Shown: one piece after another, positions 8,691 to 27,480 of the stretch | How the letters are laid out: each line of letters opens with the position of its first letter | Numbering within the stretch: position 1 is the stretch's first letter | DNA from: an uncultured Clostridia bacterium | GTDB lineage: Bacteria; Bacillota; Clostridia; Christensenellales; CAG-314 | NCBI GenBank assembly: GCA_947586855.1 | Contig: CANPXV010000015.1 | Location: forward strand, 1-32,499 | Reading direction: 5' to 3' | DNA length: 32,499 bases | Program-made: the position numbers and the translations under genes | Notes under the pieces: model-generated | Database searches by the model: none | Told to the model about the DNA's origin: nothing | Seen by the model: the letters and a program-made list of their open reading frames with translations, nothing else

Positions 8691-9069
8691 TTTCACCCTC
8701 GTCTCACCCCTCAATGCTCCCCTCTTCCTTCCTCTCCCCCTCTTCTTTTCTCTTTTTTCTTCTTTTTTTTCTCAATCACTTAATTTTTCTTCTTCCTCGC
8801 CTGTTTTTAGAGATTTTCCCCTTTCACGGCAGTGGTGCGGTGATGTGATAGTGCGGCATTACGCTACATCGCCGACCCCCTTCTTCTCCCCCTCTCTATT
8901 TCTTTCTTTTTCTTCCTACCCCTTTCTTCTTTCTTCTTTTTTTCTTCTCTCTTCTTTTTTTTACTTCTCCCCTCTTTTTTTCTCCCCTCTTTTTTTCCTC
9001 TCCTCTTCTTTTCCTCTCCTCTTCTTTTCTCTTTTTCTTCTTTTTTTCTCTCCTCTCTCCCTTTTCCCC
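8691..9069 (+). repeat. Polypyrimidine tract in a gene-free region
   Basis: The 8631-9117 stretch holds no credible gene. The plus strand is strongly T/C-biased at 8691-8820 and nearly pure pyrimidine from about 8875 to 9069, with only a handful of purines. Short tandem units are visible: a 15-base period of the form CTCCCCTCTTTTTTT at 8966-8996 and a 16-base period of the form CCTCTCCTCTTCTTTT at 8997-9028. Reading frames across it are low-complexity (Ser/Phe/Leu or Lys/Glu/Arg) and are not genes. Such tracts can form triplex (H-DNA) structures in supercoiled DNA. Confidence 0.85.
8838..8874 (+). other. Isolated hairpin between the two pyrimidine tracts
   Basis: CGGTGATGT (8838-8846) pairs with ACATCGCCG (8866-8874) with one G-U wobble. 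An inner AGTG/CGCT stem extends it after a GAT bulge. It is the only mixed-sequence block in the pyrimidine-rich region and is not followed by a T-run of terminator type. Function unknown. Confidence 0.45.
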
Positions 9070-23021: not shown

Positions 23022-23030
23022 AGCAATATA

Positions 23031-23200
23031 ATTGATAGAGGTTGTGGCTTCCATGACAAACCCATTCGGTCAGACAAACGTTTGGGCGGCAAAGGGGAAG
23101 CAACCGAAGTGCAGACGCTTGGTCTGAAAGGCGGCTGTGCTGGGACGGCGCACAATATGCGTCGTACTGTCACGCAAGTGGAGCGCTATCGTATATTGTG
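23031..23200 (+). ncRNA. Lysine riboswitch (L-box)
   Basis: The leader matches the known L-box layout in order. GATAGAGG (23034-23041) opens P1/P2. AAAGGGGAAGCAACCGAAG (23091-23109) is the core GGGG-AGC-CCGAAG junction sequence. CTGGGACGG, ACTGTCACGCAAGTGGAG and GCTATC close P5 and P1. P2 pairs GGTTG..GCTTCC with GGAAGC.AACC. P4 shows CAGAC/GTCTG. The P1 3' strand (CTATC, 23186-23190) is followed by TATATTG, which can instead pair with CGCAATATA (23209-23217) as antiterminator. Lysine binding should stabilise P1, free the terminator and switch the downstream ABC transporter off. Assigned from memory of the family, without a covariance-model search. Confidence 0.88.
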
Positions 23201-26003: not shown

Positions 26004-26087
26004 GCGCAAAAAACACCTGCCGCACGCTTTGTCTCTGTTATTGCCCCGACTTTTTTCAAGGTGCGTAATCATCAGGTCGGGTATAAG

Positions 26088-26113
26088 AAAAACGCCCGTT
26101 TTCACGAGCGTTT
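26088..26113 (-). terminator. Terminator hairpin in repeat copy 1
   Basis: On the minus strand AAACGCTCGT and ACGGGCGTTT pair around a GAAA tetraloop, continuing to five T residues. Confidence 0.85.
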
Positions 26114-26239
26114 GGTGATTGGTACATTTGACGTTAAGCCAATCTCCGCAGTGCGGAGTTGGTAGTCAAATGTGCAAGGACACATTCCGCTTGCGCAATG
26201 AATGTGTCCGCAGCATATACTGTCAAAAGTTTTTTAACC

Positions 26240-26334
26240 GTCACACACTGAGCTCTACCGACTGAGCCGCACCCTTTGGCACAAATTTAAGTTGCGCCGC
26301 TTTGGTGGAGGGAATACTCCGTTCGCTTTGCTCA
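26240..26334 (-). pseudogene. tRNA-like remnants in repeat copy 1
   Basis: The minus strand reads GGGTGCGGCTCAGTCGGTAG and then AGC, a plausible tRNA 5' part with D-arm (about 26250-26275), but no anticodon stem can be formed after it. Upstream of it on the same strand lies ATTCCCTCCACCA, the 3' half of a tRNA-Thr-like T-arm. These pieces cannot fold together into a tRNA. The same block recurs in copy 2 at about 26575-26669. Confidence 0.6.
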
Positions 26335-26386
26335 CTCCGTGGCGTTCACTCACTACGTTCGTTCGGCTGAGCGGACCCCCGACCCC

Positions 26387-26721
26387 TTTTTTCAAGGTGC
26401 GTAATCATCAGGTCGGGCAAAAGAAAAACGCCCGTTTTCACGAGCGTTTGGTGCTGGTACATTTGACGTTAAGCCAATCTCCGCAGTGCGGAGTTGGTAG
26501 TCAAATGTGCAAGGACACATTCCGCTTGCGCAATGAATGTGTCCGCAGCATATACTGTCAAAAGTTTTTTAACCGTCACACACTGAGCTCTACCGACTGA
26601 GCCGCACCCTTTGGCACAAATTTAAGTTGCGCCGCTTTGGTGGAGGGAATACTCCGTTCGCTTTGCTCACTCCGTGGCGTTCACTCACTACGTTCGTTCG
26701 GCTGAGCGGACCCCCGACCCC
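26387..26721 (-). repeat. 335-bp tandem repeat, copy 2
   Basis: Almost identical to copy 1. The visible differences are GGGCAAAAG for GGGTATAAG near 26417 and one base fewer after the terminator (GTGCTGG for GTGATTGG). High identity over non-coding DNA indicates a recent duplication, strong constraint or gene conversion. Confidence 0.9.
26424..26449 (-). terminator. Terminator hairpin in repeat copy 2
   Basis: Identical GAAA-loop hairpin and T-run to that of copy 1. Confidence 0.85.
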
Positions 26722-26794
26722 TTTTTTCAAGGTGCGTAATCATTAGGTCGGGTATAAGAAAAACGCCCGTTTTCACGAGCGTTTGGTGATTGGT
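26722..26794 (-). repeat. Partial third copy of the repeat, joined to tRNA-Thr
   Basis: The first ~73 bases of the unit (T-run, reversed tRNA piece, terminator) are repeated again. They run directly into the 3' CCA end of the tRNA-Thr gene. Here the reversed piece reads CATTAGG like the tRNA itself, whereas copies 1 and 2 read CATCAGG. Confidence 0.88.
26759..26784 (-). terminator. Terminator of the tRNA-Thr transcript
   Basis: Same GAAA-loop hairpin, lying 6 bases downstream of the tRNA CCA end on the minus strand. This copy has the clear function from which the others probably derive. Confidence 0.92.
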
Positions 26795-26866
26795 GCTGGT
26801 GGAGGGAATCGGACCCCCGACCTAATGATTACGAATCATTCGCTCTACCGACTGAGCCACACCAGC
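26791..26866 (-). tRNA. tRNA-Thr (anticodon CGT)
   Basis: The minus strand folds as a full cloverleaf of 76 bases. The acceptor is GCTGGTG/CACCAGC, the D-arm is GCTC/GAGC with AGTCGGTA, and the anticodon stem AATGA/TCATT encloses TTCGTAA (anticodon CGT, reading ACG). The T-arm is GGGGG-TCCGATT-CCCTC, then discriminator A and an encoded CCA. The T-loop reads TCCGATT, not the usual TTCGAAT or TTCGATT. It lies 50 bases downstream of rpsT on the same strand with no separate promoter seen, and is followed by a terminator. Confidence 0.95.
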
Positions 26867-26916: not shown

Positions 26917-27480
26917 CTACTTTATTTCGTCCTCTACCTCGGTGGGCTCTTCCGTAACTACGGGCGCCGGCGTTTTCTTGGCGGTGGTGCGCTTTTTGGG
27001 CGTTTCTTCGCTCTTGGTCTCCTTGGGAGCTTTGGGTGCGGCAGCCTTCTTGGCGGGGGCCTTCTTGCTCACGGGAGCTTTGGCGGCTTCTTTGGCCTTT
27101 TTGGCCTCGTTGCGTTGCGCCTTGATAGCTTCGGCTTCTTCGGCCTTGCGCTGAGCGGCAGCCTTTTGCTCGGCCTGTTTCAATGTCTTGGCGTCCACCT
27201 TCACCACGACAATACCTCTTTCCAGCTGGCTAAGCGCCTTGGCGATCTGCGCCTTTTTGCGGTTGGCGGCGTTTTTGTGGATAACGTTTTTGGTGGCGGC
27301 GTTATCGATCTTGGACGAAGCAACAGGCAGCAATTTTTTAGCCGTTTCCACATCGCCCTCTGCGATAGCTGCGTTAAACTTTCTCACAGCTGTCTGCATC
27401 TGGGAGCGGATCATTTGGTTTTGAAGTTTTTTGGTTGCGGATACAGAAACTCTTTTTTCTGCGGATTTGATGTTAGGCAT
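26917..27480 (-). CDS. rpsT: Ribosomal protein S20 with long basic C-terminal extension
   Basis: S20 binds 16S rRNA early in 30S assembly. The N-terminal ~88 residues are a standard bacterial S20 (PNIKSAEKRVSVSATKKLQNQ...AAIAEGDVETAKKLLPVASSKIDNAATKNVIHKNAANRKKAQIAKAL). The whole protein has 187 residues, so about 100 are extra. After a short hydrophobic bridge (GIVVVKVDAK), the tail is a Lys/Ala/Glu-rich helix (~100-135), then Ala/Pro/Lys-rich (KKAPAKKAAAPKAPK), ending in an acidic stretch. AAGGAG precedes the ATG on the minus strand. The tail is histone H1-like in composition. Confidence 0.95.
   Translation of the reverse strand: MPNIKSAEKRVSVSATKKLQNQMIRSQMQTAVRKFNAAIAEGDVETAKKLLPVASSKIDNAATKNVIHKNAANRKKAQIAKALSQLERGIVVVKVDAKTLKQAEQKAAAQRKAEEAEAIKAQRNEAKKAKEAAKAPVSKKAPAKKAAAPKAPKETKSEETPKKRTTAKKTPAPVVTEEPTEVEDEIK

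Follow-up and report, generated by a model that had tools for sequence, protein, structure and literature searches.

The window analysed here (the whole stretch of DNA, 32,499 bases) is one entire contig (C15) of a 1.47-Mb draft genome of 36 contigs, and in our comparison its species is represented by this one draft. On the minus strand, a gene that we take to be rpsT, a name assigned by eye, is followed by one intact tRNA-Thr(CGT), then by a terminator-like hairpin, and then by a tandem array lying immediately 3' of the tRNA (Table 1). ARAGORN and Rfam concur on the intact tRNA gene, with its lower boundary at 26791 or 26794. The sole array that TRF reported there spans positions 26050-26794, with a period of 335, 2.2 copies and 97% matches; the two full units, compared in register, are 99% identical over 300 nt and are separated by three small edits, two of which are adjacent. 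An earlier note, made from the letters alone, had claimed a tandem array of 335/336-bp units (two full and a partial third) leading into an intact tRNA-Thr(CGT), and both parts of this claim are confirmed.

Read along the minus strand, each unit contains the 5' strand of a tRNA-Thr T-arm, a 56-bp insert (A), the 3' side of the T-arm with the acceptor, a spacer, a D-arm block and a further stretch. These are followed by a 32-nt hairpin, a hairpin element (D), a tRNA-like 3' end, a terminator-like hairpin and an inverted piece of tRNA-Thr. All the pieces named in the earlier note (split T-arm, D-arm block, CCA-ended hairpin, reversed anticodon-side piece and terminators) are thus present; however, "rearranged pieces" understates their order. 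When the sequences flanking A on both sides are joined, they form the exact T-arm of tRNA-Thr (25 nt), with the junction between nucleotides 57 and 58, in the T-loop, i.e., the T-arm is split by the exact insertion of a 56-bp repeat. The array contains three terminator-like hairpins and three copies of the inverted anticodon-side piece, the nearest of which is fully complementary to the tRNA. ARAGORN and Rfam recovered the intact tRNA-Thr only, and recognised no full cloverleaf in the units.

Table 1. Coordinates of the features at the tRNA-Thr(CGT) locus (window positions)
Feature	Position	Strand	Evidence
Presumed rpsT (ribosomal protein S20, long Lys/Ala-rich tail), upstream of the tRNA	26917..27480	-	ORF list; homologue in 25/25 genus genomes
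Intact tRNA-Thr(CGT)	26791..26866	-	ARAGORN; RF00005, 71 bits
Terminator-like hairpin 3' of the intact tRNA	26761..26784	-	hairpin search
Inverted tRNA-Thr fragment (anticodon side to T-stem), 18/18 complementary to the intact gene	26735..26752	+	inverted repeat I2
Partial third unit	26721..26788	-	96% identity to unit positions 268-335
Full unit 1, 335 bp	26386..26720	-	TRF and unit comparison
Full unit 2, 336 bp	26050..26385	-	TRF and unit comparison
Unit 1, tRNA-Thr T-arm 5' strand GGGTCGGGGGTCCG	26707..26720	-	sequence
Unit 1, insert A (56 bp), at the 57/58 junction of the T-arm copy (tRNA numbering)	26651..26706	-	A model and junction analysis
Unit 1, 3' side of T-arm and acceptor ATTCCCTCCACC	26639..26650	-	sequence
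Unit 2, T-arm 5' strand	26372..26385	-	sequence
Unit 2, insert A (56 bp)	26316..26371	-	A model and sequence
Unit 2, 3' side of T-arm and acceptor	26304..26315	-	sequence
Unit 1, D-arm block GGCTCAGTCGGTAGAGC	26587..26603	-	sequence
Unit 2, D-arm block	26252..26268	-	sequence
Unit 1, 32-nt hairpin GGACACATTC...GAATGTGTCC	26513..26544	-	sequence
Unit 2, counterpart of this hairpin	26178..26209	-	sequence
Unit 1, hairpin element D, core CTAC-hairpin-CTTAACG	26460..26507	-	folding z -7.06; covariation
Unit 2, hairpin element D	26125..26172	-	covariation and sequence
Unit 1, tRNA-like 3' end ACCAGCACCA, continuing into terminator-like hairpin 26449-26426	26449..26458	-	sequence
Unit 1, inverted tRNA-Thr fragment, 94% complementary	26400..26417	+	inverted repeat I4
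Unit 2, terminator-like hairpin	26090..26113	-	hairpin search
Unit 2, inverted tRNA-Thr fragment, 94% complementary	26064..26081	+	inverted repeat I3

A search of the unit in its own genome and in related genomes, as proposed in the earlier note, covered 101 genomes (own genome and 100 relatives). Matches were found in 18 of these, beyond the own genome as pieces only; many adjoin tRNA-Thr(CGT), and others adjoin Val, Ala, Leu or Gly tRNAs. Among 11 rpsT loci with an intact tRNA-Thr(CGT), six carry extra tRNA-Thr pieces and five (G023, G024, G021, G007, G010) have none in the flank examined; therefore, a clean state exists.

Three other features of the window should be mentioned. The product of the presumed rpsT has 187 aa, including its tail, and across the 25 genus genomes the open frames of its homologues span 154-224 aa; an ordinary S20 has about 90 aa. 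A lysine riboswitch (23028-23196, plus strand) lies upstream of what appears, by eye, to be an amino-acid ABC transporter operon. Positions 8719-9056 form a long low-complexity stretch rich in pyrimidines, in which TRF found several short tandem periods.

Insert A interrupts tRNA copies at a few exact sites

In most copies, A has a size of about 30-57 bp, and it contains no gene. A sequence-only model (E up to 0.01) found A-like inserts in at least 24 of 25 genus genomes, among the matches listed. The own genome has at least seven of the listed matches: besides the two window copies, three lie in tRNA-Met copies or next to them, one lies in a tRNA-Leu copy, and one in an IS200 remnant. Direct reading of related loci showed that the insert recurs in different tRNA copies.

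The association with tRNAs was quantified for 145 distinct A cores from the fetched loci. An AAT/A left edge (a slash marks the junction) is present in 97 cores, and 94 of these had enough flank; the tally required AAT, so that the other 48 cores, and three more with short flanks, were left out. Each insert was removed in silico, and a tRNA match spanning the junction was sought. Such a match, in Thr, Leu, Gly or Arg tRNA copies, was found for 73 of the 94 inserts, while three lie at the edge of a tRNA, two nearby, and 16 have none; as a control, 2000 AAT sites were drawn at random from these loci, and five of them span a tRNA. It should be noted that the tRNA reference set was drawn from the same loci as the inserts. 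Some loci had been chosen for their similarity to the window, and the set was therefore also split by how the loci were found: where the A pattern or model alone had retrieved the locus, a tRNA is spanned in 40 of 52 cases in the genus, and in 14 of 21 in a named genome collection. When the AAT requirement was dropped and the edge was placed at the insert's own start, 64 of 116 inserts follow AAT and 99 of 116 follow T, some of these starts being misplaced.

Few sites are used per tRNA type, and A is found in both orientations relative to the tRNA. In tRNA-Thr(CGT), the inserts lie between nucleotides 39 and 40 (11 inserts), 57 and 58 (nine), 30 and 31 (two), or 8 and 9 (one). In tRNA-Leu, all 19, over four anticodons, lie between nucleotides 16 and 17. 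The Arg sites are 5/6 in Arg-ACG (17) and 56/57 in Arg-CCT (seven), and the Gly sites are 55/56 in both Gly-CCC (six) and Gly-TCC (one). Compared to the tRNA sequence, 68 of the 73 junctions are gapless within 6 nt, indicating that there is no duplication at A junctions. Exact empty sites for A were observed as well. Other repeats, too, contain some copies of A, and one of the empty sites is not in a tRNA: in IS200 copies, the site CACGAAAT/CGTG is empty in one locus (L051) and filled in three (L054, L055, L239).

An intact cognate tRNA is present on the same stretch for 50 of the 73 interrupted copies, in 47 cases within 500 bases; for 21 copies the stretch examined has no intact tRNA, and for two it has another tRNA only. 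By our estimate, tRNAs make up about 0.2% of the own genome (38 matches of about 76 nt in 1.47 Mb); thus, plain retention of inserts in non-essential DNA explains the preference poorly. The preference of A for tRNA copies could be the result of targeting or of selective retention.

In an order-wide sample of 297 genomes, 30 have A matches at E up to 1e-5, and 15 of these 30 belong to the genus. The other 15 genomes, in 30 stretches, yielded 34 cores in 26 stretches; with a looser E-value limit than in the genus tally of 94 inserts, 19 of the 34 span a tRNA (including Glu and Thr-GGT), one lies at an edge, one nearby, and 13 have no tRNA match. The interrupted-tRNA pattern extends to other families of the order. 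The exact A pattern, searched in the named genome collection, which overlaps our comparison set (some genomes are the same, judging by equal coordinates), was found in 47 stretches, all of them from Clostridia/Clostridiales drafts, some obtained from animal gut samples.

Several further arrangements were seen in individual loci. In two genomes of other genera (G255 and G196), A is dispersed at repeated non-tRNA sites with fixed flanks, TCGAAAT/A/GAC and GACGGAT/A/GAGG (L244-L248, L252-L254). One genus genome (G009, locus L228) has tandem copies of tRNA-Arg(ACG), of which two or more are interrupted by A; apart from that they are perfect, and a search of the draft revealed no intact copy. By eye, tRNA-Leu(CAA) copies of three species (L037, L041, L042) have two inserts in common: the D-loop holds A, and the variable arm holds another small hairpin. 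Another structured repeat, consisting of a CCCGTCAA-like hairpin, then GGAGAGGA, and then a long hairpin, lies near or inside tRNA copies (L004, 200-320; L005, 1330-1450; L014, 2075-2300); by eye, it apparently splits tRNA sequence too in L018 and L005.

Hairpins, known elements and the candidate reaction

In A, the joints GGCGTTC and TCGGCTRAG are conserved, and the stems are variable, yet self-complementary. For hairpin 2 of A (80 segments), the sequence varies and the complementarity is kept, with a mean stem of 3.44 compared to 2.14 for half-swapped segments, the best of 200 controls reaching 2.36; stems of two pairs or fewer occur in 36 of the 80 segments. A consensus-like copy of A folds into two hairpins (z -1.66). 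The window copy does not (z +0.99), suggesting that it may be degenerate.

Element D has an invariant core around a stem of 10 pairs. In our alignment of 13 sequences, taken from 20 candidates after six judged to be chance hairpins and one near-duplicate were left out, 99.2% of the cells of the inner stem are paired, nine of the 10 pairs are changed on both sides, and none of 500 shuffles was as good; slid controls were far lower. The sequences were found by requiring a stem, so that the percentage paired is favoured; however, such a choice would hardly give rise to nine pairs with changes on both sides. These covariation figures apply to D, the stems of A being variable in length. An integron attC reading of D was tried and rejected by eye, as one box is similar and its partner box is not. 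No group I intron matched in the window or in nine related loci, and no other known RNA family accounted for the units at curated cut-offs; scores for Gut-1, SpF41, LPR69 and similar RNA families were weak, all of them below these cut-offs.

We compared A and D to described small mobile elements. IS200/IS605 elements have hairpins or palindromes near their ends, no terminal inverted repeats, no target duplication and a conserved left target flank (PMC6006769, PMC3119063), and the PATEs/SMRs of Haloquadratum are treated as small, non-autonomous IS200/IS605-type derivatives or mobile repeats (PMC3119063). Like both, A has hairpins, no terminal inverted repeats and a fixed left target flank, and it is inserted 3' of a conserved short target without target duplication, the AAT edge being set by our tally. 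In contrast to IS200/IS605, A carries no gene, has ends different from those of the local IS200, and favours tRNA copies. Another resemblance is to REP/REPIN sequences, which A and D recall in their short hairpins with variable stems, in a conserved tetranucleotide at the 5' foot (GTTC for hairpin 2 of A; CTAC, once CTGC, for D), and in having many copies per clade. Unlike REP/REPIN (whose RAYT is TnpA-REP), they do not have the canonical GTAG/GTGG foot, they have few copies per genome, mostly in tRNA copies, and the transposases tested fall below the REP cut-off: all four Y1 proteins examined, out of 26 listed Y1 matches, are of IS200 type, and the REP model, whose cut-off is 80 bits, gives them 31-34 bits. 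A further parallel, as far as the cited account describes it, is SDR5, a tiny mobile repeat found in cyanobacteria (Elhai et al. 2008), whose module lies between nucleotides 3 and 4 of HIP1 (PMC4390886). In both, a repeat module enters a short target word at an exact position; SDR5, compared here by description, differs in its host phylum and in having HIP1 instead of a tRNA as its target. Compared by description as well, A is similar to the Rickettsia palindromic elements in being small, palindromic and inserted inside genes. The Rickettsia elements are longer than A and lie mainly in protein genes.

The fixed left flank (mostly GAAT, TAAT or AAAT), the lack of target duplication, the hairpins and the small size of A are in keeping with transposition as single-stranded DNA, of the IS200/IS605 or REP type (PMC6006769). 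Y1_Tnp matches, representing IS200 genes, are present in 12 of 25 genus genomes, and some IS200 copies of the genus are apparently inserted after AAAT. No Y1_Tnp match was found in 12 of the 24 A-bearing genus genomes, and the ends read at eight Y1 loci differ from those of A; thus, these searches point to no particular mover. Inspection by eye for guide/target pairing according to IS608 rules gave no clear match in A, GTTC and TRAG being candidates only. IS200/IS605-like movement could explain the AAT flank of A, but not its strong tRNA preference.

Origin of the array

Our best reading is that the array consists of supernumerary, non-coding copies of tRNA-Thr(CGT), interrupted by, and built with, members of a clade-wide group of tiny hairpin elements, whereas the intact gene beside rpsT presumably still produces tRNA. 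This accounts in large part for the composition of the unit, with the exception of the spacer pieces, the stretch that precedes the 32-nt hairpin, and the inverted fragments. As to its history, we consider it probable, though by no means certain, that spare tRNA copies arose by local duplication, were invaded by tiny hairpin-bearing elements similar to IS200/IS605-derived or REP-like ones, and were then amplified in tandem. A local duplication at the tRNA locus would have provided a spare tRNA-Thr(CGT) copy; tRNA gene duplication is known from experimental evolution (PMC7661048). Insert A would then have entered the T-loop copy precisely behind the antisense-strand sequence 5'-GGGAAT, most likely moving as single-stranded DNA through a reaction of the HUH/Y1 type (IS200/IS605- or REP-like). 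The covarying hairpin D would also have come into the spare copy, putatively by insertion, and the interrupted copy would finally have multiplied as head-to-tail units of about 335 bp. This order of duplication, insertion and amplification is suggested by the partial copies and by the near identity of the units. Two options of the earlier note are thus combined: the "decayed tRNA array" is right in that spare tRNA copies are present, but is incomplete alone, as the copies also bear very small insertion-type elements, and the "tRNA-targeting mobile element" agrees with the presence of such elements in tRNA copies, but has to be joined with an array of spare copies.

A broader reading, which we put forward tentatively and hold to be less probable than the local history, is that A, D and their companions are an order-wide class of tRNA-homing miniature elements, each a hairpin-bearing unit of about 40-57 bp, that prefer tRNA genes as targets, enter them after AAT on either strand, and persist via spare tRNA copies.

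The units might instead be genes for functional, tRNA-derived structured RNAs that are read through from rpsT-tRNA-Thr and ended by the three terminators, as the earlier note had also considered. This is unlikely in our view, although the strong covariation of the D stem, the same terminator-like hairpin at the end of each unit and of the tRNA, and a paired acceptor-stem change read directly in one disrupted copy (L013) speak for it. The occurrence of A in both orientations relative to its host tRNA argues against an RNA role of A, and the covariation of D can equally reflect the recognition of a DNA hairpin. Moreover, the composition varies between species, and the clean rpsT loci have no copies in the flank examined. 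A terminator-like hairpin lies ahead of the units, and no sigma-70-like promoter was found there on the minus strand.

Somewhat less probable still are remnant att sites of a phage or ICE that used tRNA-Thr, the 3' end being restored at each integration and the cargo being lost. The interrupted 3' parts do lie downstream of the intact tRNA here, and the T-loop and the anticodon loop are favourite crossover sites of tyrosine integrases. Yet the gapless junctions show no core duplication, A also occupies the tRNA-Leu D-loop and a site close to the 5' end of tRNA-Arg, and no integrase was noticed by eye among the ORFs of the window. The exact patterns of A and D had no match in viral contigs, phage records matched only tRNA-Thr itself (among 20 of 22 matches listed), and plasmids gave no match; thus, at the sensitivities used, the array has no phage, viral or plasmid link. 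In Haloquadratum, a partial tRNA-Thr duplication is reported to be tied to prophages (PMC3119063), which counts for the att reading.

An assembly artefact, i.e., a chimera or collapsed repeat in the metagenome assembly, is very improbable. The draft is fragmented, the window being a contig of 32,499 bases, and an A match lies 300 bases or less from a contig end in 14 of 40 fetched stretches (hand count, among the matches listed). However, the array is internal with unique flanks, its units differ, and comparable tandem arrays lie beside the same tRNA in the separate assemblies of relatives (L005, L006, L014), which makes an artefactual structure unlikely, the copy number being given as assembled; the assembly error suggested earlier is therefore an unlikely source of the composition.

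Least probable of all is the removal of A at the RNA level, in the manner of an intron, from interrupted tRNAs that still work: the three tRNA-Arg(ACG) matches of G009 are all without nucleotides 1-5, two being visibly interrupted and otherwise 100% identical, but the contig begins exactly at the repeat edge, so that an intact copy may be unassembled, and both the two orientations of A and the lack of a self-splicing family match count against it, as do full-length tRNA-Arg(ACG) matches in 18 of the 25 genus genomes (partial matches only in G008, G009, G010, G022, G002 and G012; none in G001).

We found no account of such interrupted tRNA copies in the literature, judged from titles and the beginnings of abstracts. 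In these Clostridia, tRNA counts and pseudo-tRNA calls need care, and A-type elements may help to explain why their assemblies break at tRNA loci. If tRNA homing is true, these elements would probably be among the smallest site-selective mobile units described, inserting with single-nucleotide precision, and their preference for tRNA genes would go beyond what single-strand transposition, as described, explains. In that case, the spare copies may serve as sinks that spare the essential tRNA gene.
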